Shown piece after piece: positions 5,450 through 55,054 of a stretch of DNA of 58,132 bases; the stretch's first letter is position 1, and each line of letters starts with the position of its first letter. Origin of the DNA: a virus. A program made the translations under genes and the position numbers. The notes beneath the pieces are model-generated. The model was not told where the DNA came from. It was given only the letters and a program-made list of their open reading frames with translations, and made no database searches. The stretch covers positions 1-58,132 of IMG/VR virus record IMGVR_UViG_3300008116_000137. The stretch is one strand, 5' to 3'.

Positions 5450-8400
5450 ATGCCATTTCAAGTCAGTCCCGGTGTAAATGTAACAGAAATTGACCTTACG
5501 ACTATAGTTCCTGCCGTATCCACTACAGAGGGTGCATTAGCAGGTGTTTTTCGTTGGGGTCCTATTGATCAAAGAGTTCTTGTTGACAGCGAGACAATTC
5601 TAATTGATCGTTTTGCTAGACCAACAAATCTAAACCCAGAGACATGGTTTACAGCAGCTTCATTTCTAAGCTATGGTAACAGACTTTATGTTTCTCGTGC
5701 CGCTAATACAACAGGTGTTTCACCACAGGTTGATGTTGTAATTAAGGGAAATACTTCTTATGCTGATGCTACTGTATATCTAGCATCTGGAAACACAGAA
5801 AATCTCCAGTCTAATTTATATGTTATTTTCTCAAATACTGGTGTTGTTACTAATGGCGCAAGAATTTCAAGCATCGTAAATTCTACTGCATTTACATTCT
5901 CAACAAACAGTGATCTTACAGTTGCTGCAAGCGGAAGTGCTACATTCAATGCCAATACCGGTGTTGATACTAATGATTTTATTACAACAACTTCAGCACA
6001 TGGGTTTACTAATAACGATATTATTAAATATGTTGTTTCTGCCGGAAACACAGCTTTGACAGGCTTAACAAATAATGAACATTATTTTGTTGTTTCTGCC
6101 AATTCAACCGCATTTAAAGTAGCATCCACTCTTGGTGGTGCTGCAATCGATGTGACAGCATCTTCAACAGTTGAATCAGGTCATACATTCTTTAGACAGT
6201 CTGTAAAATCAACTCTTCAGCTTTTATCAAATACAGCTTTCTCAGCAGTTGTTAATACTGCAACAGTTGCTAATCTAGCTGGACAGATTGTCAAGAATGA
6301 AGATCATTTTACAACAAAATCATTTGATGACGAAGATGTAAAATTCGTTGCAAGATTCCCAGGTGAAATTGGAAATTCACTAAAAATTTCTGTTTGCGCC
6401 AATTCAACAGGTTATTCAGAAACTGTAAATCTTGCCAGTAATAATGCTACACTTACAGTAAACACAAACTCAAATACAGGTGCTATTGTATTTAATACTG
6501 TTGGTAATATTTCTTATTCAAATTCAACATTCAATGCATCATCTGGTGTTAATGGTACAACCGAATTTATCACAACATCAGCAGCACATAGTTTTGCAAA
6601 TGGTGATGTTGTTAAGTATATTGTTGCCGCAGGTAATACTGTTGTTAGTGGTTTAGCAAATGGTACTACATATTACGTTGTAGGTGCGAATTCAACAGCA
6701 CTACAACTTGCTGCTACATCTGGTGGTTCTGCATTAAACATAACAGCCGGTTCATCAGAAACAGGGCATACACTTTCAAAAGTTACAGTAACAACATCTG
6801 CTACTGCTAATGCTACAACAAAGGCTAATTTAGTCGGTAATGCTATGAATGTTACTGACAAATTAGAAGTTGGTAACACATTAATTGGTGTTCAGTATAT
6901 TAAGATTACAAATGTAAGCTCAGTATCAACAAATAATGTTGTTAATTTAACTGTATCTGTAAATACATCAGCTAATGACACTACTCTCGTTAGTCTTGCA
7001 ACTGGTACAACTGCTAATCTAATGGTAGGTGATCTAGTTCTTAGTTCATCAGATTCTGAAGTAATGAACGTAGCAGCAAATGCAGCTATTACAAGAATTG
7101 TAAACTCAACAGCATTTGTTGTCAATACCGATATTACAGTAGCAAATGGTTCAGCTACACTAGGTGTTACACAAAGCTTTACTGGCACTGCTACTCTAAC
7201 ACTAAACTTTGAAGATCAGTTTAAACTTTCCACAGATTTCTCTTCAAATACATCTGTTTCAAGATATTGGGAGTTCTTTGATCTAGTCGATAGAAGTGTT
7301 GGTCTTTCTGATTATCAGATTGGTTTCGGTAATAATGCTGTTAATTCAGACGAAATGCATGTGGTTGTTGTTGATGAAGGTGGTAAGTTTACAGGTGTAC
7401 CAGGAACAATTCTTGAAGTTTATCGTGAAATTTCAAGAGCAACAGACGCAAAAACAGTTGATGGTGCAACAAATTACTGGAAGAATGTAATTAATGACCA
7501 GTCACAGTATGTTTGGGCAGTCAATGATATTTCTGGTGCAACATCAAATACAGCAGAAAATCTAACAAGCTCAACACTTGACGTTGTTGCATACAACTTC
7601 AATCTAGGTCGTGATGGTGCAGATGAAGCCAATATTCCATTAGGTCGTCTAACAACTGCTTATGACAAGTTCAAATCAGCAGAAGATATTGATATTTCTC
7701 TAATTCTAACCGGTAAGTCAAATAACTTCCAGTTAGGTAATTATCTTATTGATAATATTGCAGAAATTCGTAAAGATTGTGTTGTCTTCATTTCACCACA
7801 AAAAGGTAATGTTGTTTCAAATATTGGCAACGAAGTAGACTCAATTATTTCATTTAGAGATAATCTACGTAGCACATCATACGCTGTTCTAGATTCTGGA
7901 TACAAGTATATGTATGATCGCTATAATGACGTTTATCGTTGGATTCCATTAAATGGTGATATTGCTGGTCTCTGTGTAAGAACAGACTCAACAAATGATC
8001 CATGGTGGTCTCCTGCTGGTTTCAATCGTGGTCAGATTAAGAATTCAATTAAACTTGCATTCAATCCACGTAAGTCTGAAAGAGATTCACTATATAAGGC
8101 TGGTGTCAATCCTGTTGTCACATTCCCAGGTCAGGGAACAGTTCTATTCGGTGATAAGACTCTTCTAGCAAAACCATCAGCATTTGATAGAATTAATGTT
8201 CGTAGATTGTTCATTGTTCTTGAGAAAGCCATTGCTACAGCATCTAAGTTTACACTATTTGAATTCAATGATGACTTTACAAGATCACAGTTCAAGAATC
8301 TTGTAGTGCCATATCTTCGTGACGTTCAGGGTCGTCGTGGTATCACTGACTTCTTGGTTGTTTGTGACGGAACAAACAATACACCAGAAGTTATTGATAG

Positions 8401-8518
8401 AAACGAGTTTATCGGTGATATCTATATCAAGCCAGCCCGTTCAATTAACTTCATTCAACTTAACTTTATTGCTGTTAGAACTGGTGTAGCCTTCTCAGAA
8501 GTAGTCGGCAAGTTCTAA
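5450..8518 (+). CDS. 18: Tail sheath protein gp18, with a large beta-rich insertion
   Basis: A protein of 1022 residues, against 659 in T4. The N-terminus (MPFQVSPGVNVTEIDLTT) and the C-terminal third, including FTLFEFNDDFTRSQFKNLV and the final barrel, are conserved sheath sequence and form the contractile core. Between about residues 90 and 590 is a Ser/Thr/Asn/Val-rich insertion. It holds two related modules, near 178-245 and 373-445, each with the pattern HxF-NxDxxKY-GNT-GL-YxVV-ANSTA-GGxA-GHT. These probably form surface domains on the sheath. It is flanked by gp17 and gp19 as expected. Confidence 0.93.
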   Translation: MPFQVSPGVNVTEIDLTTIVPAVSTTEGALAGVFRWGPIDQRVLVDSETILIDRFARPTNLNPETWFTAASFLSYGNRLYVSRAANTTGVSPQVDVVIKGNTSYADATVYLASGNTENLQSNLYVIFSNTGVVTNGARISSIVNSTAFTFSTNSDLTVAASGSATFNANTGVDTNDFITTTSAHGFTNNDIIKYVVSAGNTALTGLTNNEHYFVVSANSTAFKVASTLGGAAIDVTASSTVESGHTFFRQSVKSTLQLLSNTAFSAVVNTATVANLAGQIVKNEDHFTTKSFDDEDVKFVARFPGEIGNSLKISVCANSTGYSETVNLASNNATLTVNTNSNTGAIVFNTVGNISYSNSTFNASSGVNGTTEFITTSAAHSFANGDVVKYIVAAGNTVVSGLANGTTYYVVGANSTALQLAATSGGSALNITAGSSETGHTLSKVTVTTSATANATTKANLVGNAMNVTDKLEVGNTLIGVQYIKITNVSSVSTNNVVNLTVSVNTSANDTTLVSLATGTTANLMVGDLVLSSSDSEVMNVAANAAITRIVNSTAFVVNTDITVANGSATLGVTQSFTGTATLTLNFEDQFKLSTDFSSNTSVSRYWEFFDLVDRSVGLSDYQIGFGNNAVNSDEMHVVVVDEGGKFTGVPGTILEVYREISRATDAKTVDGATNYWKNVINDQSQYVWAVNDISGATSNTAENLTSSTLDVVAYNFNLGRDGADEANIPLGRLTTAYDKFKSAEDIDISLILTGKSNNFQLGNYLIDNIAEIRKDCVVFISPQKGNVVSNIGNEVDSIISFRDNLRSTSYAVLDSGYKYMYDRYNDVYRWIPLNGDIAGLCVRTDSTNDPWWSPAGFNRGQIKNSIKLAFNPRKSERDSLYKAGVNPVVTFPGQGTVLFGDKTLLAKPSAFDRINVRRLFIVLEKAIATASKFTLFEFNDDFTRSQFKNLVVPYLRDVQGRRGITDFLVVCDGTNNTPEVIDRNEFIGDIYIKPARSINFIQLNFIAVRTGVAFSEVVGKF

Positions 8519-8553: not shown

Positions 8554-9162
8554 ATGGCTTTCAATATTGACACTTTTAAATCACAAGGTCTTGCGCTAGG
8601 TGGCGCAAGACCATCCCTCTTTCGTGTAAGACTATTTTTTCCAGCAGTAATTGCAGGTAAAAGTGCTGCTGAACAAGAATCAGTTTTTCATGTAAGAGCA
8701 GGACAAATGCCAGCTTCAACATTAGGTACTGTTGAAGTTCCTTATTTTGGTCGTAAGATTAAATTAGCTGGTGATAGAACATTCACTGATTGGACTGTTA
8801 CAATCATGAATGATGAAGATTTTCTTCTAAGAAATGCTCTTGAAGAATGGTCAAATGCAATCAATACATTAGTATCAAATAGATTAAATCCTGCTGTTGC
8901 TGGTAATATTGCTGGTACAACTGGTAATTATAAAACAGATTTGTTTGTTGATCAGTATGCCAAAGACGGTCCATCTGATGAACAAGGTATCATTAGATCA
9001 TACCGTTTCGTTGGTGCATTTCCAACAGAAATTGGTACAATCAATCTTGATTGGGATACAACAAATCAGATTGAAACATTTGATACAACATTTGCATATG
9101 ATTATTGGGTTCCAGAACCAGTAAATACACCAGCGTATTCACCAATTCTAAATCCCGCTTAA
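8554..9162 (+). CDS. 19: Tail tube protein gp19
   Basis: A protein of 202 residues. Features match the T4 gp19 family: N-terminal FNIDTFKSQGLALGGARPSLF, then VRAGQMPASTLGTVEVPYFGR and the central DWTVTIMNDEDF. It polymerises as hexameric rings into the inner tail tube inside the gp18 sheath. T4 gp19 is 163 aa, so this member carries some added loop sequence. It sits between sheath and portal genes, as in T4. Confidence 0.92.
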   Translation: MAFNIDTFKSQGLALGGARPSLFRVRLFFPAVIAGKSAAEQESVFHVRAGQMPASTLGTVEVPYFGRKIKLAGDRTFTDWTVTIMNDEDFLLRNALEEWSNAINTLVSNRLNPAVAGNIAGTTGNYKTDLFVDQYAKDGPSDEQGIIRSYRFVGAFPTEIGTINLDWDTTNQIETFDTTFAYDYWVPEPVNTPAYSPILNPA

Positions 9163-13055: not shown

Positions 13056-14300
13056 ATGACAATAGCAACCTATGATGAGTATGTTGAAATCGTGAAAGTA
13101 CTTGGTGAGGAAATCGAATTAACACAAGAAGAATTCGATCTCATGGAAGTAGCTGATAAAAATAAGAGATTCGAATCTCTTGTTGCCATGTATAAAGCTA
13201 GAAAGTCTGGTAACAAAGAAGCTGCTGAAAAGCACGAAAAAGAAGCTAGAGAAATGTCTAAGAAGAAAAAGATGGCTAAAGAAGAAGTAGAAACTTCAGA
13301 AACAGAAATTACTGAAACACAAGCTGCTGATACTCTTAAGCCAAATTCACGTCCAGTTCCACATTCACGTATGGAAATGATGACATCAGTTATGTCAGCT
13401 ATGGGCGGAATGCCAAAGAAAGATTTAGTCAAGTGGTTCGATCAGGCAATGGCTGTATTTGGTCCAAATAAAGACCTTGGTGTCCCTGATAATTCTGCAA
13501 AGAATGCCGCTTCAATTGATACAACATTAGGTTCAGGACCAAAGACAAAAATGCCAATGCAGAAACTCAACGTCAAGGAAGATGTTGAGGAAATGTTTGC
13601 TGGTCAGGACTTATCAGAAGAATTTAAGGGCAAGGCCACTACACTATTTGAAGCTGCTGTAAATGCTCGTGTTGTACTAGAGACAGCACGTATTGAAGAA
13701 GAATTTGAAAATACACTTAATGAACAAGTTGGAGAAATTGTTTCTGATCTAACAGAAAAAGTTGATCAGTATTTAGACTTCGTTGTTGAGACTTGGATGA
13801 AGGATAATGAAGTTGCTATTGAAACTTCACTCCGTAACGAACTAGTTGAAGATTTCATCGAAGGTCTAAGAGGACTATTCTCTGAACATTATATCTCTGT
13901 TCCACAGGAGAAATTAGATATTCTTGAAGCACTATCTGAAAAGGTAGCTGAACTTGAAGAAAAGCTAGACGAAACAATTAGCGAAAATGTAGAGTTAAGA
14001 CAGATTGCTCAGTCAATCGAACTAGAAGATGTTTTCGATACTGTTTCAGAGGGTCTAGCTCTAACACAGGTAGAACGTTTCCGCTCACTCGCTGAAGGCA
14101 TTGAGTTTGATGGTGATCTAACTGCTTACGAAAGAAAGTTAAACATCATTAAGGAACAATACTTCACAGAAAAGACATCAGTTGCTGCATCTGTAATTAA
14201 CGAAGATGTATCAGGTGAAAATAGTCTAACTGAAGAAGTAGTAACAACACCTGAAATGAAAAGATATGCTTTAGCTATCTCTAGAACAATAAAGAAATAA
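13056..14300 (+). CDS. 22: Prohead scaffold protein gp22
   Basis: A protein of 414 residues (T4 gp22 is 269). It is highly charged and helical with long coiled-coil stretches (ILEALSEKVAELEEKLDE near 295). The C-terminal half resembles the gp22 core domain, ending in PEMKRYALAISRTIKK. It assembles the transient core on which gp23 polymerises and is then degraded by gp21. The extra N-terminal ~130 residues are Lys/Glu-rich. Confidence 0.88.
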   Translation: MTIATYDEYVEIVKVLGEEIELTQEEFDLMEVADKNKRFESLVAMYKARKSGNKEAAEKHEKEAREMSKKKKMAKEEVETSETEITETQAADTLKPNSRPVPHSRMEMMTSVMSAMGGMPKKDLVKWFDQAMAVFGPNKDLGVPDNSAKNAASIDTTLGSGPKTKMPMQKLNVKEDVEEMFAGQDLSEEFKGKATTLFEAAVNARVVLETARIEEEFENTLNEQVGEIVSDLTEKVDQYLDFVVETWMKDNEVAIETSLRNELVEDFIEGLRGLFSEHYISVPQEKLDILEALSEKVAELEEKLDETISENVELRQIAQSIELEDVFDTVSEGLALTQVERFRSLAEGIEFDGDLTAYERKLNIIKEQYFTEKTSVAASVINEDVSGENSLTEEVVTTPEMKRYALAISRTIKK

Positions 14301-14343: not shown

Positions 14344-15696
14344 ATGCTAGCTGAAGAACTAAACAACAAGTGGAAGCCAATTCTTGAGCATCCCGATCTT
14401 ACACCAATTAAGGACGTTCATCGTCGTAACGTAACTGCTGCTCTACTAGAGAATACAGAGAAAGCATTACGTGAGTCAGGTGCACATTCTCAGTATCTAC
14501 TTTCAGAAGCCATGACATCATCAATTCCTGTTAATGCTATGGGTTCTTCTTCATCAACAGCATCAGCAGGTGCTATTGATACATTCGATCCTGTTCTAAT
14601 CTCACTAGTTCGTCGTGCAATGCCAAATCTAATTGCATATGACATTTGCGGCGTTCAGCAGATGACAGGTCCAACAGGTCTCATTTTCGCAATGAGAGCA
14701 CGTTATGCCAACCAGACACATACAGAAACATTCTACAATGAAGTTAACACTTCATTCTCTTCTGTTGTTTCAGGTGCTAACACACTAGGCCAGAAGCATG
14801 TCGGTACATTCCCTGATGGTTCTGCTAATCTTGCTGCAAATGGCGTTTATAACTTTGGTTCAGCCATGGCAACATCACAGGCTGAAGCTCTTGGTACAGA
14901 CAGCAATTCAGCTTTTGCTCAGATGGCATTCTCAATTGAGAAACTAGCCGTTACAGCCAAGACTCGTGCTCTAAAGGCAGAATACACCATGGAACTAGCC
15001 CAGGACCTAAAGGCTATTCATGGTCTAGACGCCGAAACAGAACTTTCAAACATTCTCTCTTCAGAGATTATGGCTGAAATCAACAGAGAAGTTGTTCGTA
15101 CAATCAACGTCACAGCCGTTGCTGGTGCACAGGACAACACAACAACCGCTGGTTACTTCGATCTTGATACAGACTCAAATGGCCGTTGGTCAGTTGAGAA
15201 GTTCAAGGGTCTAATGTTCCAGTTAGAGCGTGAAGCTAACCAGATCGCCAAGCAGACTCGTAGAGGCAAGGGTAACATCGTTATCTGTTCATCAGACGTT
15301 GCTTCTGCTCTACAGATGGCCGGTGTTCTTGATTACGCTCCTGCTCTAAATTCAAACAATCTACAGGTTGACGACACAGGCAATACATTTGCTGGTGTTC
15401 TAAATGGTCGTCTTCGTGTTTATATCGATCCATATGCCACTGGTGGTAACTATCTAACAGTTGGTTATAAGGGTTCATCAGCCTTTGATGCTGGTCTATT
15501 CTATTGCCCATACGTTCCACTACAGATGGTACGTGCAGTCGATCAGGACAGCTTCCAGCCAAAGATTGGTTTCAAGACACGTTATGGAATGATTGCTAAC
15601 CCATTCGCAAAGGGCGCAACAGCATTCACAGATGACGGTCTTGCAAAGGATTCAAACGTCTACTATCGTCGTGTAGTTGTTTCAAATCTTATGTAA
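14344..15696 (+). CDS. 23: Major capsid protein gp23
   Basis: A protein of 450 residues with the HK97-fold capsid sequence of T4-like phages: VNAMGSSSSTASAGAIDTFDP, SLVRRAMPNLIAYDICGVQQMTGPTGLIFAMRARY and the closing FKTRYGMIANPFAKG. Cleavage by gp21 after an (L/I)xE site in the N-terminal ~65 residues is expected. Codon use is noticeably more restricted (CTA Leu, CGT Arg, GGT Gly) than in neighbouring small genes, fitting very high expression. A strong terminator follows. Confidence 0.97.
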   Translation: MLAEELNNKWKPILEHPDLTPIKDVHRRNVTAALLENTEKALRESGAHSQYLLSEAMTSSIPVNAMGSSSSTASAGAIDTFDPVLISLVRRAMPNLIAYDICGVQQMTGPTGLIFAMRARYANQTHTETFYNEVNTSFSSVVSGANTLGQKHVGTFPDGSANLAANGVYNFGSAMATSQAEALGTDSNSAFAQMAFSIEKLAVTAKTRALKAEYTMELAQDLKAIHGLDAETELSNILSSEIMAEINREVVRTINVTAVAGAQDNTTTAGYFDLDTDSNGRWSVEKFKGLMFQLEREANQIAKQTRRGKGNIVICSSDVASALQMAGVLDYAPALNSNNLQVDDTGNTFAGVLNGRLRVYIDPYATGGNYLTVGYKGSSAFDAGLFYCPYVPLQMVRAVDQDSFQPKIGFKTRYGMIANPFAKGATAFTDDGLAKDSNVYYRRVVVSNLM

Positions 15697-15784: not shown

Positions 15785-16309
15785 ATGACTGCATTAGATA
15801 AAAATCCAACAAATCATAATTTCCTTTCTCCATTAAATTTTAAGTTTCAAATTAAAAGAGCGCCACACATTAATTTTTTCATACAAGAAATCAATCTTCC
15901 TTCTATCTCTATTCAACCAAAAGAGGTAGGAAACCCATTTGTAAAAATTCCATATCCTGGCGATCATATAGATTATACTCTCCTTACTGTTAAGTTCAAG
16001 GTAGATGAAGATTTAAAAAACTATTTGGAAATGCAATCTTGGCTTCGTGGTCTTGGCTTTCCTCAATCATTTGATGAGTATAGCACCCTTTCAAACCAAA
16101 ATCAACTGGAAGGTAAGGGGTTAAGATCAGATATTTCATTAATTATTCTTAATAGTACGAAACTTCCAAATTACGAAATCACATTTACAGAAGCATTCCC
16201 TGTATCATTATCTGAATTGGTATTTTCAACCACAGAAGATACAGTCAATTATATGACTGCCACTGTAGACTTCAGATATATTCTCTACAATATTGAAAAA
16301 ATCACTTGA
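15785..16309 (+). CDS. Tail tube-like protein (gp19/gp54 superfamily)
   Basis: A protein of 174 residues. The FKFQIKRAPHINFFIQEINLPSI opening, then KIPYPGD and DYTLLTVKFKVDEDL, follows the pattern of T4-type tube and tube-initiator proteins, where strands of the beta-barrel are followed by a conserved inner-surface loop. It could be the baseplate tube initiator (gp54-like) or a second tube protein; the sequence alone does not separate them. It has its own late promoter, and its stop overlaps the -35 box of the uvsY promoter. Confidence 0.7.
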   Translation: MTALDKNPTNHNFLSPLNFKFQIKRAPHINFFIQEINLPSISIQPKEVGNPFVKIPYPGDHIDYTLLTVKFKVDEDLKNYLEMQSWLRGLGFPQSFDEYSTLSNQNQLEGKGLRSDISLIILNSTKLPNYEITFTEAFPVSLSELVFSTTEDTVNYMTATVDFRYILYNIEKIT

Positions 16310-18285: not shown

Positions 18286-18819
18286 ATGGCTAAAAATTAC
18301 GTTAATAATAAGACGTTATATACTGAAATGGTGAAATACCATGAGCAGTTATATTTGTCTATTCAAAAAGATAATCCTAAACCAATCGTCTCCAACTATA
18401 TTGGACAGGCGATTATGTTAATATGCAATCGTTTAGCTTATAAGCCAAATTTTATCAATTATACATTTCGTGAAGAAATGATTGCTGATGGTATTGAAAA
18501 CTGTATTGTTGCTATTGATAACTTCAATCCAGATAAATCTAAAAATCCGTTTGCATATTTTACTCAGATCGCATGGAATGCATTTTTGAGAAGAATAGCC
18601 AAAGAGAAGAAACAGACCTATATAAAACATAAAAACTTTGAAAATTCTTTTGCGACACATGAAATGGAAATGATTTTTAACGATATAAATTATTATACCC
18701 AAGGAGTCAATGAATTTTCAAACGAGATTATTTCTTCATTTGAAGAGAAAAATCTTACCGTCAAAAAGAAAAAGAAAATGAGCATGGGTCTTGAAAAATT
18801 AATTGATAACGGAGAGTGA
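18286..18819 (+). CDS. 55: Late-transcription sigma factor gp55
   Basis: A protein of 177 residues (T4 gp55 is 185). It has a sigma region 2-like core: FREEMIADGIENCIVAIDNF, then NPFAYFTQIAWNAFLRRI, as in the T4 late sigma family. The basic C-terminus ends in MGLEKLIDNGE, compatible with the short hydrophobic-acidic clamp-binding tail. With RNA polymerase core it reads TATAAATA promoters, of which several perfect copies stand before virion, lysis and pmoC genes here. Confidence 0.93.
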   Translation: MAKNYVNNKTLYTEMVKYHEQLYLSIQKDNPKPIVSNYIGQAIMLICNRLAYKPNFINYTFREEMIADGIENCIVAIDNFNPDKSKNPFAYFTQIAWNAFLRRIAKEKKQTYIKHKNFENSFATHEMEMIFNDINYYTQGVNEFSNEIISSFEEKNLTVKKKKKMSMGLEKLIDNGE

Positions 18820-25507: not shown

Positions 25508-26164
25508 ATGAATATTGATGTTACCACATTAAATGTGTTGAAAAACTTTTCGGCTATTCATCCATCAATCATTATTGAGAAGGGAAATGTTCTAAAGACA
25601 ATTTCTTCCAATAAGACAATGATGGCAAAGGCAAAGATCGAACAGTCTTTTGATAAGACATTCGGTCTTTGCGACATCTCAAACTTTATTTCTGTTCTTT
25701 CGATGTTTGAGAATCCAGTTCTTAATTTTGATGAAAGTGAATCTTATGTAAAGATTACATCAGAAGATGATACAAGGTCTATCAAGTATGTATTTTCTGA
25801 AATGTCTCTTATTGAAGAAGCACCGGATACTATTAGAATTGGAGACATTATTGTATCTTTTTCATTAACTGAAAAGACACTTGTAGAATTGACAAAGGCT
25901 ATTGGTATCTTTAAGGTAGATGAAGTTACCATCATCGGTGATGGTGATAATATTACAATTAATGTTATCGATAATAAGAGATCAGGTTCTGAATATAGTG
26001 ATGTGATTGGTAAAACAGACAAAGTTTTCAAAGCATTTTTCAGAAAAGAAAATCTTATCATTCGACCAAATACATATGAAGTGAAGATGTCTGCACAAGC
26101 TGCACATCTTTCACATCCTGATATTGAGTATTGGATTGCAGTAGAGCATCATTCGAAATTTTAA
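25508..26164 (+). CDS. 45: Sliding clamp gp45
   Basis: A protein of 218 residues (T4 gp45 is 228). The clamp topology is visible as MNIDVTTLNVLKNFSAIHPSI at the start and EVKMSAQAAHLSHPDIEYWIAVE at the end. It tethers DNA polymerase gp43 and co-activates late transcription with gp55. It heads the gp45-gp44-gp62-regA replication cluster in T4 order. Confidence 0.93.
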   Translation: MNIDVTTLNVLKNFSAIHPSIIIEKGNVLKTISSNKTMMAKAKIEQSFDKTFGLCDISNFISVLSMFENPVLNFDESESYVKITSEDDTRSIKYVFSEMSLIEEAPDTIRIGDIIVSFSLTEKTLVELTKAIGIFKVDEVTIIGDGDNITINVIDNKRSGSEYSDVIGKTDKVFKAFFRKENLIIRPNTYEVKMSAQAAHLSHPDIEYWIAVEHHSKF

Positions 26165-50234: not shown

Positions 50235-50663
50235 ATGCTTAATCGTGATGTTAAGATGATGAAATTTGTGAGACGACTGGCTATTGACAATAAAGGTGTA
50301 AAAGACAGATTTAAATTGGCAGCAGCCCTCACCCTGAAAAGGGATGTGATTTCGATTGGGTTTAATGAAATGAGATCACATCCGCTTCAAAAACAATTTG
50401 GTAAAAATGAAGAGTCTATTTTTCTTCATGCAGAGATTTCATCTATTGTAAACGCTCTTAATCACATAGACAAAAGCGATCTTAAAAAATCTACTCTATA
50501 TATTCATAGAGTAAAAAAGCTGAGTAAGTTTGATTCTGAATGGGTAGATGGAATGGCATGTCCATGTGAAGGTTGTCAGTCAGCAATTTACTCGTTTGGT
50601 ATTCCTAGAGTAATTTATTCTACAAACACAAATGACGAATATACAGAGTGGAGAAACACATGA
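50235..50663 (+). CDS. Cytidine/deoxycytidylate deaminase-family protein
   Basis: A protein of 142 residues with the zinc site of the family: HAE (65-67, His and catalytic Glu) and PCEGC (110-114, two Cys). The opening RRLAIDNKGVKDRFKLAAAL and C-terminal SFGIPRVIYS support the CDA fold. Likely a small nucleotide or nucleoside deaminase; the substrate (dCMP, cytidine or other) cannot be read from sequence. Confidence 0.8.
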   Translation: MLNRDVKMMKFVRRLAIDNKGVKDRFKLAAALTLKRDVISIGFNEMRSHPLQKQFGKNEESIFLHAEISSIVNALNHIDKSDLKKSTLYIHRVKKLSKFDSEWVDGMACPCEGCQSAIYSFGIPRVIYSTNTNDEYTEWRNT

Positions 50664-50932
50664 AAAAGATTATTACTATTGTTACAGTTCTAGTTATTTC
50701 CCTTGCTTCAATCGCACCAGCAAATGCATGGTATCGCCGTGGTTATTATGGTGGCTATGGTGGCTACTATGGTGGTTGGGGCGCAGCAGCAGGTATTGGT
50801 CTAGGATTGGGTCTTCTAGGTGGGGCAATCGCTGCTTCTCAATATCCTTATCGATATAACTATTATCCATATCCTTATTATTCTACTCCATATTATGGGG
50901 GTTATGGTTATAATCCATATTATGGATGGTAA
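50660..50932 (+). CDS. Secreted Gly/Tyr-rich protein
   Basis: A protein of 90 residues. A clear signal peptide (MKKIITIVTVLVISLASIAPANA) is followed by Gly/Tyr-rich repeats (YGGYGGYYGGWG, YYPYPYYSTPYYGGYGY). GGAG lies 6 nt before the ATG. It stands directly before pmoC. Such sequences occur in envelope-exposed small proteins of bacteria and phages; role unknown. Confidence 0.7.
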   Translation: MKKIITIVTVLVISLASIAPANAWYRRGYYGGYGGYYGGWGAAAGIGLGLGLLGGAIAASQYPYRYNYYPYPYYSTPYYGGYGYNPYYGW

Positions 50933-50970: not shown

Positions 50971-50999
50971 TTGACACAGTGAAGAGTAAATGGTATAAA
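50971..50999 (+). promoter_or_regulatory. pmoC promoter (sigma70 type)
   Basis: TTGACA (50971-50976), 17-nt spacer, TATAAA (50994-50999). Predicted start near 51006. Confidence 0.85.
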
Positions 51000-51001
51000 T
51001 A
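50994..51001 (+). promoter_or_regulatory. Late promoter octamer overlapping the pmoC -10
   Basis: TATAAATA, a perfect T4-type late octamer, coincides with the -10 element of the pmoC promoter. Confidence 0.65.
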
Positions 51002-51005
51002 AATC

Positions 51006-51055
51006 CAAGAGTGGCGGTTTCCCGTCACCAAGGCGAAACTGACCACTTGATTTTT
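51006..51055 (+). promoter_or_regulatory. Structured leader of pmoC with terminator-like end
   Basis: The leader begins at the predicted start site. Arms CAAG-AG-TGG and CCACTTG pair with a 2-nt bulge. CGGTTT and AAACTG (6 bp with one G-T) pair inside around a 15-nt loop. The right arm is followed by ATTTTT. It could be a 5' stabilising hairpin, an attenuator or a small RNA. AAGGAG follows at 51062-51067. Confidence 0.6.
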
Positions 51056-51076
51056 ATCTCTTAAGGAGAATAGTAT

Positions 51077-51841
51077 ATGATTACAACAAATACTGCAAAG
51101 GTTGCAGTTGCAGAACAGTCAGAAGTAGTCGATCTTCGTGGAATGTGGATTGGTTTAGGTCTATTAAACACATTCTATCTAATTGTCAGAATTTATGAAC
51201 AAGTATACGGTTGGAGGGCCGGTCTTGATTCATTTGCTCCAGAGTTTCAGACATATTGGATGTCTATTCTCTGGACAGAGATTCCACTTGAACTAGTATC
51301 AGGACTAGCACTTGCCGGATATCTTTGGAAGACAAGGGATCGTGCAATTGACAGCGTGGCTCCTCGTGAAGAGATGCGCCGTCTTGTTACACTAGTACAA
51401 TGGTTAGTAGTATATGCAGTTGCAATTTATTGGGGTGCATCTTTCTTTACTGAACAGGATGGAACCTGGCATATGACAGTAATTCGTGATACTGACTTTA
51501 CACCAAGTCATATTATTGAGTTTTATATGTCATATCCAATTTACTCAATTATTGCAGTTGGGGCTTTCTTTTATGCTCGTACACGTATTCCATATTTCTC
51601 ACATGGATATAGTCTTGCATTCTTGATTGTTGCTATCGGTCCATTTATGATTATTCCAAACGTTGGTCTTAACGAGTGGGGTCATACATTCTGGTTCATG
51701 GAAGAACTATTCGTAGCACCTCTACATTGGGGCTTCGTGTTCTTTGGTTGGATGGCATTAGGAGTATTTGGTGTAGTTCTACAGATTCTAGGTAGAGTAC
51801 ATTCTCTATTAGGTAAAGAAGGTGTCAATCTTCTAACTTGA
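51077..51841 (+). CDS. pmoC: Particulate methane monooxygenase subunit C
   Basis: A membrane protein of 254 residues, full length (bacterial PmoC is about 255-260). It follows alphaproteobacterial PmoC almost throughout: FYLIVRIYEQVYGWRAGLDS, YWGASFFTEQDGTW, VIRDTDFTPSHIIEFYMSYP and VGLNEWGHTFWFMEELF. All six copper-site ligands are present: Asp128, His132 and His145 (Cu-C) and Asn199, His203 and His217 (Cu-D). Several transmembrane helices are evident. PmoC pairs with PmoA and PmoB, which are absent here, so it would join or replace host subunits. Codons are phage-like, so transfer is not recent. It has its own dual promoter, leader and strong ribosome binding site. Confidence 0.96.
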   Translation: MITTNTAKVAVAEQSEVVDLRGMWIGLGLLNTFYLIVRIYEQVYGWRAGLDSFAPEFQTYWMSILWTEIPLELVSGLALAGYLWKTRDRAIDSVAPREEMRRLVTLVQWLVVYAVAIYWGASFFTEQDGTWHMTVIRDTDFTPSHIIEFYMSYPIYSIIAVGAFFYARTRIPYFSHGYSLAFLIVAIGPFMIIPNVGLNEWGHTFWFMEELFVAPLHWGFVFFGWMALGVFGVVLQILGRVHSLLGKEGVNLLT

Positions 51842-51866
51842 CAAAATTGCGGGTGGTAGGTATAGT
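51838..51866 (+). promoter_or_regulatory. Promoter at the end of pmoC for the RNA block
   Basis: TTGACA (51838-51843, overlapping the pmoC stop), 17-nt spacer, TATAGT (51861-51866). Predicted start near 51873, at the base of a hairpin. Confidence 0.8.
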
Positions 51867-51870
51867 TATC

Positions 51871-51982
51871 TTGCCGGTTTCATACGCCGGTAAAAGTGGG
51901 GGCAGTTCCCACACCCGCTTCATAGCTTCCACGACGGGGAACTTTCGTCAGCCAAATAGGTTTTCTGTTATCCTATGGAAGA
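51871..51982 (+). ncRNA. Candidate structured RNA between pmoC and the tRNAs
   Basis: No gene fits here. In order: a 5' hairpin TTGCCGG/CCGGTAA (51871-51893), a second hairpin GTGGG/CCCAC (51896-51912), then a three-way junction in which CTTCCA (51926-51931) pairs with TGGAAG (51976-51981) around two hairpins, GACGG/TCGTC (51933-51949) and TAGG/CCTA (51957-51975). It starts at a strong promoter. I cannot match it to a known RNA family. Confidence 0.5.
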
Positions 51983-52004
51983 AAAACAGACAAGTTTACG
52001 GAAT

Positions 52005-52100
52005 TGGTCAGTGGTGAAAGAGTAGACACGGCGGAACTCGCTGCTGTTATGATACTAGTCGGATAACAGCGTGTAGGTGCAAGTCCTACCTGACCTACCA
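52005..52100 (+). ncRNA. tRNA-like element with a degenerate anticodon arm
   Basis: A 96-nt element shaped like a class II tRNA. It has an acceptor GGTCAG/CTGACC ending in ACCA, T8-G9, a D-arm GTG/CAC with GTAGACAC as in leucine tRNA, a long 8-bp variable arm GCTGTTAT/ATAACAGC, and a T-arm GTAGG/CCTAC. Where the anticodon arm should be there are only 13 nt (52030-52042) with a 3-4 bp stem and a short loop. The T-loop is TGCAAGT rather than TTC-type. It may be a mimic, a decayed tRNA or a processing signal. Confidence 0.6.
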
Positions 52101-52107
52101 AATATAT

Positions 52108-52183
52108 GGACTCTTAGCTCAATAGGTAGAGCATCGGACTTTTAATCCGCTGGTCCTGGGTTCGAATCCCAGAGAGTCCTCCA
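52108..52183 (+). tRNA. tRNA-Lys (TTT)
   Basis: A canonical cloverleaf: acceptor GGACTCT/AGAGTCC, D-arm GCTC/GAGC, anticodon loop CTTTTAA (anticodon TTT), T-loop TTCGAAT, encoded CCA. It reads AAA/AAG, abundant in this AT-rich genome. Confidence 0.95.
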
Positions 52184-52184
52184 T

Positions 52185-52192
52185 TATAAATA
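52185..52192 (+). promoter_or_regulatory. Late promoter octamer between tRNA-Lys and tRNA-Asn
   Basis: TATAAATA, 16 nt before tRNA-Asn. It would allow late transcription of tRNA-Asn and the structured RNA after it. Confidence 0.5.
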
Positions 52193-52208
52193 AGTTAAGT
52201 TAGTATAT

Positions 52209-52283
52209 TGGAGTGTGGCGCAGCGGTAGCGCAGGTGACTGTTAATCACTTGGTCGCAGGTTCGAATCCTGCCTCTCCAGCCA
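52209..52283 (+). tRNA. tRNA-Asn (GTT)
   Basis: Cloverleaf with acceptor TGGAGTG/CTCTCCA (one mismatch), D-arm GCGC/GCGC, anticodon loop CTGTTAA (anticodon GTT), T-arm GCAGG/CCTGC, encoded CCA. Confidence 0.93.
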
Positions 52284-52288
52284 GAATA

Positions 52289-52362
52289 GACTATCACGCC
52301 TTTCGTAGAAGCGCACCAGATAGTCAGGGGATGGACGCCACAAATAGTCCCGTGAGGGTCCA
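52289..52362 (+). ncRNA. Candidate second structured RNA
   Basis: After tRNA-Asn a stem GACTATC/GATAGTC (52289-52325) encloses a smaller hairpin (CGC...TTC/GAAGCG, 52297-52313). A second stem, TGGAC/GTCCA (52332-52362), competes with the terminator that follows. Function unknown; it may be a processed leader or an independent RNA. Confidence 0.4.
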
Positions 52363-52379
52363 CGGTTAGCCCTCTTTTT
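52354..52379 (+). terminator. Terminator of the RNA block
   Basis: Stem GAGGG/CCCTC (extended by one T-A pair past a bulge) with an 11-nt loop and five T. It ends the transcript that carries the structured RNA, tRNA-like element, tRNA-Lys and tRNA-Asn. Confidence 0.7.
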
Positions 52380-52395
52380 ATTAACAGGAGTGAAC

Positions 52396-52752
52396 ATGAA
52401 GAAGTTTGTGATTGTTTTTATGATGGTTGTTAATGCTACAAATGCTTATGCACAGTATTTTGCACCTGTTTATATTCCTCCACCTGTTCCAATCCCTCGT
52501 TGGTGGCAACAGGGTGCTATTCCAGTAAGAGAAAGACCAGAATATGCTCCTTTACCACCACCTCCTCAAGAACAAGTTCCTGTACCAGTTCCAGAACCAG
52601 TTATTGTAGAAAAACCAGTTGTTATTGAGAAGAGGATACCGGTAGCTGTGCCAGTTCCTACAAGGAGACCTGTGTGCACAACGTATCCAGACCCATGGGA
52701 TACTTTTGGATACATTTTTGGTGATCCATTTATGATCACTACATGTTACTAA
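52396..52752 (+). CDS. Secreted proline-rich protein
   Basis: A protein of 118 residues. The signal peptide is about MKKFVIVFMMVVNATNAYAQ, followed by Pro/Val-rich repeats (PLPPPPQEQVPVPVPEPVIV, then PVVIEK) that would span a periplasm or cell wall distance. CAGGAG lies 5 nt before the ATG. TonB-like spacing is conceivable, but no TonB C-terminal domain is present. Confidence 0.65.
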   Translation: MKKFVIVFMMVVNATNAYAQYFAPVYIPPPVPIPRWWQQGAIPVRERPEYAPLPPPPQEQVPVPVPEPVIVEKPVVIEKRIPVAVPVPTRRPVCTTYPDPWDTFGYIFGDPFMITTCY

Positions 52753-52762
52753 ATACAATAAT

Positions 52763-52838
52763 GCTGGTGTAGCTCAGAAGGTAGAGCAACGGATTTGTAA
52801 CCCGTAGGTCGTCAGTTCGATTCTGGCCACCAGCACCA
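52763..52838 (+). tRNA. tRNA-Thr (TGT)
   Basis: Acceptor GCTGGTG/CACCAGC, D-arm GCTC/GAGC, anticodon loop TTTGTAA (anticodon TGT), T-arm GTCAG/CTGGC, encoded CCA. Confidence 0.95.
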
Positions 52839-52850
52839 TAACAAGGTTAT

Positions 52851-52925
52851 TCGGGGATAGTTAAATTGGTATAACGTCGGATTTTGGTTCCGTCTTTCTA
52901 GGTTCGAGTCCTAGTCTCCGATCCA
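52851..52925 (+). tRNA. tRNA-Gln (TTG)
   Basis: Acceptor TCGGGGA/TCTCCGA (one G-T pair), D-arm GTTA/TAAC, anticodon loop TTTTGGT (anticodon TTG), T-arm CTAGG/CCTAG, encoded CCA. Confidence 0.93.
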
Positions 52926-52940
52926 AACAGGATTATTAAT

Positions 52941-53048
52941 ATGGATAATAGACAACATACGATTTCAGCAATTATAAAAATTGTTAGTTTTTTTGCTTTG
53001 ATGATTATTTCTGGTTTTATTTTACAGGATATATATTCATTAGGTTAA
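52941..53048 (+). CDS. Tiny membrane protein between tRNAs
   Basis: A protein of 35 residues with one transmembrane helix (IIKIVSFFALMIISGFILQ). AGGATT upstream is a weak ribosome binding site. Its frame ends 5 nt before tRNA-Gly. Confidence 0.45.
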   Translation: MDNRQHTISAIIKIVSFFALMIISGFILQDIYSLG

Positions 53049-53052
53049 TAAT

Positions 53053-53127
53053 GCGGATGTAGCTCAATGGTAGAGCAGCAGCCTTCCAAGCTGAATACGA
53101 GGGGTTCGATTCCCCCCTTCCGCTCCA
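53053..53127 (+). tRNA. tRNA-Gly (TCC)
   Basis: Acceptor GCGGATG/CTTCCGC (one mismatch), D-arm GCTC/GAGC, anticodon loop CTTCCAA (anticodon TCC), T-loop TTCGATT with a GGGG/CCCC T-stem core, encoded CCA. Confidence 0.94.
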
Positions 53128-54017: not shown

Positions 54018-54257
54018 ATGAAGAATATTTTAATTTGTTCAATTCTATTTTTATCTACTGCTGCTTATGCTGCTCCTTACGGAACATTTCATAATCCAGT
54101 AGAAGACCCACCTTTCACAGGCGATTGGTCACGACCTGTACATCGTGGAATGTATTGTGTAAAGGGTACATGGCATCACGGTTGGTTACAGCCATGGGAA
54201 AGCAGTCCAGTTATTAAGCCATCATGTGGGACAGCAGTATATCAGATCGAAGATTGA
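54018..54257 (+). CDS. Small secreted protein
   Basis: A protein of 79 residues. A signal peptide (MKNILICSILFLSTAAYAA) precedes a Trp/His/Pro-rich domain with two Cys (GMYCVKG, KPSCGTA) that could form a disulphide. It ends over the start of the next gene's upstream region. Role unknown. Confidence 0.65.
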   Translation: MKNILICSILFLSTAAYAAPYGTFHNPVEDPPFTGDWSRPVHRGMYCVKGTWHHGWLQPWESSPVIKPSCGTAVYQIED

Positions 54258-54259
54258 TC

Positions 54260-55054
54260 ATGAAAACTATTTTGATGTGTAGACCAGTATATTATGATGT
54301 CGATTATGATATAAATCCCTGGATGACAAATAACAAAAATACTGTTGATAAAGAATTGGCCCATATTCAGTGGGAAAATTTATACGAAGCTTTGACAAAA
54401 GTATTTAATGTTAAATTGATTACGGCTGTACAAAATCTTCCAGATATGGTCTTCACAGCAAATGCTGGTTTTTACAAAAAGAGACATAATTTAGTATATG
54501 TTTCAAATTTTAAAAATAGAGAAAGAAAAGGAGAAGAAATCCATTTTATTCAATGGTTTATAAAAAATGGATATTCTATTTTTCAACCAAATGTTCCTTT
54601 TGAGGGCGAAGGTGATCTATTAAAAGGTGATAGCCATAATCATTGGTTCGGTCATGGTTTTAGGTCGGATAGGTCTGTAAAGAATGTTTTTCCATTTACA
54701 GAAATTTCTAATTCTAGACATTTAGAAATGATTGATCCTAGATTCTATCATCTGGATACATGTTTTGTACCATTGAGAAATGGTGGTAATTTATGGTATC
54801 CTGGTGCATTTACCGAAGAATCACAGGAAAAAATTCGTAGGAATTCTTTTAATTCCTATTCTGTAGAAGTTACAGAGGAAGAGGCATTAACATTTTGTTG
54901 TAACGCTATTGTTAAAGATAATTATGTTTTTATGCCAAAATGTGAGTCTGTTGCTAAAAAACTTTTGAAAAAAGGATTCATTGTCAAACAATTTGACATG
55001 AGTGAATTTATGAAATCTGGTGGAGCATGTAAATGTCTGGTTATGTATATTTGA
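54260..55054 (+). CDS. DDAH/amidinotransferase-superfamily enzyme
   Basis: A protein of 264 residues. The superfamily pattern is well kept: LMCRPVYYDVDYDINPWM, PDMVFTANAGF, FEGEGDLL, HLDTCFVPL (His164 and Asp166) and SGGACKCLVMYI, with Cys259 the likely nucleophile. The fold is the penta-blade propeller of guanidino-group hydrolases (dimethylargininase, arginine deiminase, amidinotransferases). Exact substrate is not clear. The start at 54260 lies just after the previous stop. Confidence 0.82.
   Translation: MKTILMCRPVYYDVDYDINPWMTNNKNTVDKELAHIQWENLYEALTKVFNVKLITAVQNLPDMVFTANAGFYKKRHNLVYVSNFKNRERKGEEIHFIQWFIKNGYSIFQPNVPFEGEGDLLKGDSHNHWFGHGFRSDRSVKNVFPFTEISNSRHLEMIDPRFYHLDTCFVPLRNGGNLWYPGAFTEESQEKIRRNSFNSYSVEVTEEEALTFCCNAIVKDNYVFMPKCESVAKKLLKKGFIVKQFDMSEFMKSGGACKCLVMYI

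Follow-up and report, generated by a model that had tools for sequence, protein, structure and literature searches.

Described pmoC-carrying phages and the contig

Phages that carry pmoC were described by Chen et al. 2020 (PMC7674155), and further cases are given in PMC9875498 and PMC10904782. The alpha-type members (LM_1, LM_2, LM_5, CB_4, LR_1, and others) span ∼160 to 175 kb. Late expression of the gene was suggested in that study because pmoC and structural genes were expressed together in three related large phages of the gamma type, as detected in metatranscriptomes of Lake Rotsee (PMC7674155); until now, the case for late use of phage pmoC has come from these three phages of one lake. 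The pmoC-phages of 159 to 168 kb from the same lake, which are the size class most like the phage studied here, were transcriptionally inactive when sampled (PMC7674155). Promoters and leaders are not mentioned in that paper, where the word “promoter” occurs zero times, and what the present locus adds to its account is the late/sigma-70 promoter and the leader of pmoC. Viral amoC of thaumarchaeal viruses, as described where it is cited in PMC7674155, encodes the homologous subunit C and is also carried alone, but its hosts are archaeal and the process is ammonia oxidation. The psbA and psbD genes of T4-like cyanophages (PMC2984593) likewise encode a single labile membrane subunit of an energy-yielding complex of the host. 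They differ in the complex and in the host, and cyanophage psbA expression has been shown experimentally, whereas the present pmoC is known by sequence alone.

The window, that is, the whole stretch of 58,132 nucleotides that was analyzed, is the 58-kb virus record IMGVR_UViG_3300008116_000137. It encodes gp13, gp14, gp15, gp16, gp17, gp18, gp19, gp20, gp21, gp22, and gp23, together with uvsY, a UvsW-like helicase, gp55, gp46/47, gp45, gp44, and RegA. This T4 core gene set, which an earlier note made from the letters of the sequence had already claimed, identifies the contig as that of a T4-like myovirus. The record is probably a fragment rather than a whole genome, because related pmoC-phages span 160 to 175 kb. 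As a T4-related myovirus with a stand-alone pmoC it falls among the pmoC-phages of Chen et al. 2020, in line with the earlier note's remark that phage pmoC is known from the literature (PMC7674155), and it shares with them a Methylocystis-like pmoC without pmoA or pmoB, tRNA clusters, and an AT-rich composition. No match to pmoA or pmoB was obtained in the window, in a search without a working positive control: the bacterial locus added as a control proved to hold a stand-alone pmoC itself, and the same search of a second pmoC-phage (G008) returned one chance match of 38 residues. Annotated phages (INPHARED) searched by tblastn with the PmoC protein gave no match.

The tail sheath protein gp18 has 1022 amino acids in the window, against 622 in G008 and 846 in G009, apparently through a central insertion. 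Two gp19-like tail-tube genes are present (8554 to 9162 and 15785 to 16309), the second preceded by its own late promoter.

TABLE 1 Features of the pmoC locus and of the late-transcription system in the window
Feature	Position	Strand	Description
gp18 unit	promoter 5395; gene 5450..8518	+	Late promoter TATAAATA; tail sheath gene
gp22 unit	promoter 13020; gene 13056..14300	+	Late promoter TATAAATA; scaffold gene
gp23 unit	promoter 14306; gene 14344..15696	+	Late promoter TATAAATA; major capsid gene
gp55	18286..18819	+	Late sigma factor; phrog_234, E = 2.3e-53; PF04542
gp45	25508..26164	+	Sliding clamp; phrog_223, E = 1.2e-51
−35 element of pmoC	50971..50976	+	TTGACA, 6/6 consensus, 17 bp before TATAAA; sigma-70 type, overlaps the late promoter
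Late promoter of pmoC	50994..51001	+	TATAAATA, T4 type, −13 to −6; predicted transcription start 51007
Leader element	51007..51051	+	AAGAGTGGC...GACCACTTGAT, conserved; 5′-terminal hairpin, stem ∼51009 to 51048
Small hairpin	51057..51069	+	UCUCU/GGAGA, pairs Shine-Dalgarno AAGGAG (51063 to 51068); predicted fold
pmoC	51077..51841	+	254 amino acids, ATG to stop; PmoC subunit of particulate methane monooxygenase (pMMO), six copper ligands
tRNA cluster	51848..53127	+	Met, Lys, Asn, Thr, Gln, Gly; directly 3′ of pmoC; ARAGORN

The PmoC protein and its ancestry

The complete open reading frame of pmoC matches the Pfam family PF04896 (AmoC) nearly end to end (E = 1.1e-108; residues 7 to 247 of the protein, 4 to 244 of the 245 positions of the profile) and passes TIGR03078 with 336 bits against a cutoff of 280.6, which agrees with the earlier note's description of a full-length PmoC. 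The solved structures closest to it include 3rfr, 4phz, 7s4m, and 3chx, and the best matches are PmoC chains of the Methylocystis/Methylosinus type (520 bits for 3rfr_C and 515 bits for 4phz_K), whereas solved AmoC chains reach at most 225 bits, under half of the PmoC scores. The NCBIfam model AmoC_BACT is also passed (362.9 against a cutoff of 319), but it fails to separate PmoC from AmoC, and its name is no indication of ammonia oxidation. By its sequence the protein is PmoC rather than AmoC, because of these scores (520 against no more than 225 bits) and because it is nested among the PmoC proteins of Methylocystis.

The six copper-ligand residues named in the earlier note, D128, H132, H145, N199, H203, and H217, are all present. 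The match to chain 1yew_C covers residues 8 to 237 of the query and 36 to 265 of the chain; the two spans are of the same length and offset by +28 throughout, so that the six residues fall on D156/H160/H173 and N227/H231/H245 of Methylococcus capsulatus (Bath), the copper-ligand positions of that PmoC. Homology to the PmoC of Methylocystis sp. (PDB 3rfr, 4phz, and 7s4m) is full length, with all copper ligands in common. The window copy differs in being phage encoded, with phage codon usage, without a pmoAB operon, and with another promoter and leader, and in its termini, which diverge between phage and host proteins while the core is conserved.

At least 109 stretches in IMG/VR encode a PmoC relative, and the best 80 of these were used together with 80 bacterial loci. 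The resulting PmoC tree, an analysis that the earlier note had proposed, has 107 rows and places the window copy with the PmoC of type II methanotrophs and not with ammonia or other monooxygenases. All 28 representatives of the alphaproteobacterial-type phages form one clade within Methylocystis (support 97/77, or 99/92 without L038), and the bacterial rows nearest to this clade are Methylocystis; the gamma-type phage copies are placed separately, within Methylococcales. On these data, carriage of pmoC must have switched between bacteria and phages at least four times. The smallest well-supported set with the window copy consists of 10 phage rows (100/96), and the window copy is closest to PmoC from other phages, with 94% protein identity to the nearest copy found. 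The affiliation to Methylocystis or Methylosinus that had been claimed thus stands as type II and alphaproteobacterial, with the nearest bacterial PmoC belonging to Methylocystis and not to Methylosinus. Of the host prediction, the Methylocystis-type affinity holds; since the phage copies form a clade of their own, the acquisition is old, and pmoC speaks to the present host of the phage only indirectly.

Compared with its nearest phage copies, the window gene shows dN values of 0.034 to 0.041 and dS values of 0.71 to 0.87, a dN/dS ratio of ∼0.04 to 0.05 that indicates strong purifying selection. Its GC3 is 0.26, within the range of the phage genes (0.18 to 0.32) and far from that of bacterial pmoC (0.75 to 0.82). 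This matches the AT-rich, phage-like codons reported in the earlier note and indicates AT amelioration, by which the composition of the gene has become phage-like. As judged from tree, composition, and substitution rates, pmoC is an old acquisition from a Methylocystis-like host and was then retained by selection.

Promoter and leader of pmoC

No part of the locus is more informative than the promoter and leader. The motif of T4 late promoters, here TATAAATA, occupies positions −13 to −6 relative to the transcription start, and for phage Aeh1 the published late promoter is the variant CTAAATA (PMC1524935). By this convention, the TATAAATA that stands 83 nt upstream of the pmoC ATG predicts +1 at 51007. 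The same motif stands 27 to 55 nt upstream of gp13, gp18, gp22, gp23, and a tail-tube gene. It occurs 12 times in the window, mildly above the 7.2 occurrences expected by chance, and its position is the informative part. Motifs and structural genes are thus the same as in T4 and Aeh1; unlike the late promoters of those phages, the motif here also stands upstream of a metabolic gene acquired by capture, where it overlaps a sigma-70 promoter with a consensus −35 box. The sigma factor that reads T4-type late promoters is gp55, and the gp45 sliding clamp is the co-activator of late transcription in T4. The genome encodes both, and with a motif upstream of the gene that is common to the structural genes, the sequence features of a T4-type late promoter are found.

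A survey of the 200 nt upstream of pmoC covered 38 distinct phage groups (28 alpha type and 10 gamma type) and 76 bacterial genes. The motif TATAAATA is present in 19 of the 28 alpha-type and 8 of the 10 gamma-type groups, and CTAAATA takes its place in 6 further alpha-type groups, at −58 to −64, giving a late-type motif in 25/28 alpha-type groups. Upstream of bacterial pmoC, TATAAATA was found in 0/76 and CTAAATA in 1/76 cases, and random 200-nt phage windows contain them at rates of 1.6% and 2.4%, respectively. G008, which represents the second lineage, has CTAAATA before gp18, gp22, the tail-tube gene, and pmoC. Four phages of the CTAAATA lineage show no TATAAATA in their capsid regions, and all four phages compared from the class of the window have it before gp23. 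This suggests that in each of these lineages pmoC bears the late-promoter motif that the phage itself uses, and the match is only suggestive because the comparison covers two lineages.

The second component of the promoter is the sigma-70-type −35 element. TTGAC[A/T] is found exactly 17 bp before the late motif at pmoC in 15 phage groups. Among the 12 TATAAATA sites of the window, the site at pmoC is the only one with such an element, and among 27 sites in G009 it is found at pmoC and, in weaker form with 18-bp spacing, at one other. In RB49 and cyanophage S-PM2, early and late promoters have likewise been proposed to overlap (PMC2984593). Late transcription of the window pmoC is well supported by these motifs and agrees with the published expression of pmoC alongside structural genes; early transcription probably occurs too.

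The leader element AAGAGTGGC...GACCACTTGAT begins with the predicted +1 base, and the gap between TATAAATA and the element is a constant 5 nt across the class. The predicted hairpin begins two bases from the 5′ end of the transcript, with fold z-scores of −3.24 and −3.64 in two runs; most leaders of the class have values of about −2 to −4.4, and the short leaders of other late genes mostly lack structure. A search of 2.9 million viral contigs (IMG/VR) gave 45 stretches that contain the element. In 43 of these it precedes pmoC or a deleted remnant of it, and all 43 have TATAAATA just upstream; the two remaining stretches have neither pmoC nor TATAAATA. Repeat recovery of a phage from several samples accounts for many of the 43, which amount to ∼17 distinct leader sequences. 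A covariance model of the leader has a single match in the window and a single match in G009, each before pmoC, and also matches in L021, and it gave no match on 31 bacterial pmoC loci. The element was not found in 199 genomes from the family of a Methylocystis genome and matches no family of Rfam 15, even at E values up to 1. These searches establish, at the level of sequence, that the conserved leader is specific to phage pmoC. Derivation of the leader from the host operon was rejected, since neither the 199 genomes nor the scanned bacterial pmoC loci contain it.

The stem shows almost no variation, and covariation thus speaks neither for nor against the structure; support for the hairpin comes from the fold z-scores, the constant position, and the topology. 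The hairpin as an intrinsic terminator is not supported, as the lineages do not share the U-run that follows the stem. Nearer to the start codon, the small hairpin that pairs the Shine-Dalgarno sequence is predicted in most leaders of the TATAAATA class and may act on that sequence.

The 5′-terminal hairpin would serve to stabilize the transcript. It is possible, though doubtful, that it is instead a regulatory switch (an attenuator, a ligand- or protein-binding site, or an element occluding the Shine-Dalgarno sequence) or a DNA recombination site. The near-invariance of the outer stem and its sequence exceeds the need of a generic stabilizer, a second small hairpin covers the Shine-Dalgarno sequence, and the phage encodes RegA, a translational regulator. 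However, the inner loop and the length vary freely, Rfam has no relative, and the U-run is not shared across lineages. In addition, phages of the CTAAATA lineage have a different and unrelated 5′-terminal hairpin at the same place (z-scores weaker, from −0.5 to −2.0), which fits simple end protection.

The odds appear even that phages have repeatedly given captured pmoC its own expression unit, in the form of a promoter for both host sigma-70 and phage gp55 polymerase in one lineage, the CTAAATA late motif in another, and lineage-specific 5′-terminal leader hairpins, with AAGAGTGGC...GACCACTTGAT as a new RNA element dedicated to pmoC. If this is true, the element controls the stability or translation of pmoC mRNA through the whole infection. 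The literature searched for pmoC or amoC with a late promoter gave no account of a lineage-matched late promoter, an overlapping sigma-70 element, or a pmoC-specific leader, an absence that is not proof of novelty. Together, promoter and leader predict the exact transcription start and offer a testable reason in the DNA for late, and probably also early, expression in alpha- and gamma-type pmoC-phages. The leader is, moreover, a DNA tag that separates phage from host pmoC transcripts in metatranscriptomes.

Proposed role, flanks, and deletion derivatives

What the locus itself establishes is an intact PmoC under selection, a combined sigma-70/T4 late promoter, and a leader hairpin at the predicted transcript start. 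The gene is rather likely to be a functional auxiliary metabolic gene, long resident in a T4-like phage that infects Methylocystis-type methanotrophs, and to sustain methane oxidation by the host. Early in infection, host RNA polymerase would read pmoC, and later the polymerase programmed by gp55 and gp45 would read it strongly, as it does capsid genes, with the 5′-terminal hairpin shielding the mRNA from 5′-end-dependent decay. Phage PmoC would then enter the intracytoplasmic membrane and join PmoA and PmoB made by the host, so that pMMO could keep oxidizing methane after shutoff of host pmoCAB transcription. By analogy to D1/psbA of cyanophages, methane turnover would supply energy and carbon for virion production. 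Since pmoA and pmoB are absent from the window, function depends wholly on assembly with host subunits; both the incorporation of phage PmoC into host pMMO and the link to methane oxidation during infection are what we infer from the sequence. The locus thereby bears on whether methanotroph phages alter methane oxidation.

That such phages carry only pmoC and never pmoA or pmoB (PMC7674155), with no convincing match to either here, also suits a protein that is expressed and folded but diverts pMMO (to another substrate, lower turnover, or membrane remodeling) or serves as a structural membrane protein, and the divergence of the termini from those of the host around a conserved core points the same way. 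This alternative seems unlikely, as the six metal ligands and the core around them are conserved under strong purifying selection.

Deletion derivatives of pmoC were found in eight IMG/VR stretches from two phage groups (L169, L185, L186, L187, and L191; L181, L182, and L189). They retain the late promoter, the leader, and the first ∼37 codons, while ∼200 codons are gone, with the ends joined near IVR|RVH; in L181 and L182 the remnant is an in-frame 52-amino-acid, single-helix protein. They resemble the central deletion reported for part of the CB_5 population (PMC7674155). With ∼200 codons lost and promoter and leader kept, pmoC is therefore dispensable in some phage populations. These derivatives would also suit a recent capture or neutral passenger, expressed merely through having landed near a phage promoter. 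That explanation is most improbable for the window copy, given the low dN/dS, the fully phage-like GC3, the deep phage-only clade, and a promoter-leader unit that is dedicated to the gene and matches the phage lineage in each case. Long residence under selection remains the preferred reading.

Upstream of pmoC lie a dCMP-deaminase-like gene and a small open reading frame, and downstream lies the tRNA cluster. DNA similarity to sister pmoC-phages runs only from near −87 to the pmoC stop codon; in places the right flank is similar to a different phage lineage, for example over 237 bases at the contig end, with 97% identity. Since pmoC is a known assembly breakpoint (PMC7674155), this pattern could reflect host and phage DNA, or two phages, wrongly joined at the gene. 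Such a chimera is very unlikely: the pmoC DNA is at most 86% identical to any copy found, too distant for k-mer joining; promoter, leader, GC3, and both flanks are of phage type, with phage genes or tRNAs on each side; and capsid and pmoC point to the same phage lineage. Nothing, including the nearest relatives of the gene, points to the join of phage and host DNA that the earlier note had named as the outcome that would overturn it. Capture of the pmoC cassette from another phage backbone is not shown either, because the capsid protein is nearest to phages of the same promoter/leader class (77 to 79%, versus 63 to 64% for others), and replacement of the flanks is equally likely.

The small open reading frame directly upstream of pmoC (50648 to 50932) has an apparent signal peptide and a Gly/Tyr-rich repeat, with no match in Pfam or PHROG. 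Rfam confirms five of the six tRNAs called by ARAGORN, the exception being tRNA-Met at 51848 to 51921. A tRNA-like sequence with a long variable arm (Leu/Ser-like), called by neither program, lies between pmoC and tRNA-Lys (51980 to 52105), and a further TATAAATA stands inside the cluster, before tRNA-Asn (52185 to 52192). Beyond the tRNAs, positions 54224 to 55054 encode a dimethylarginine dimethylaminohydrolase-like protein (PF19420, E = 5e-11), and at the DNA level this gene resembles stretches close to pmoC in L036 and L054.
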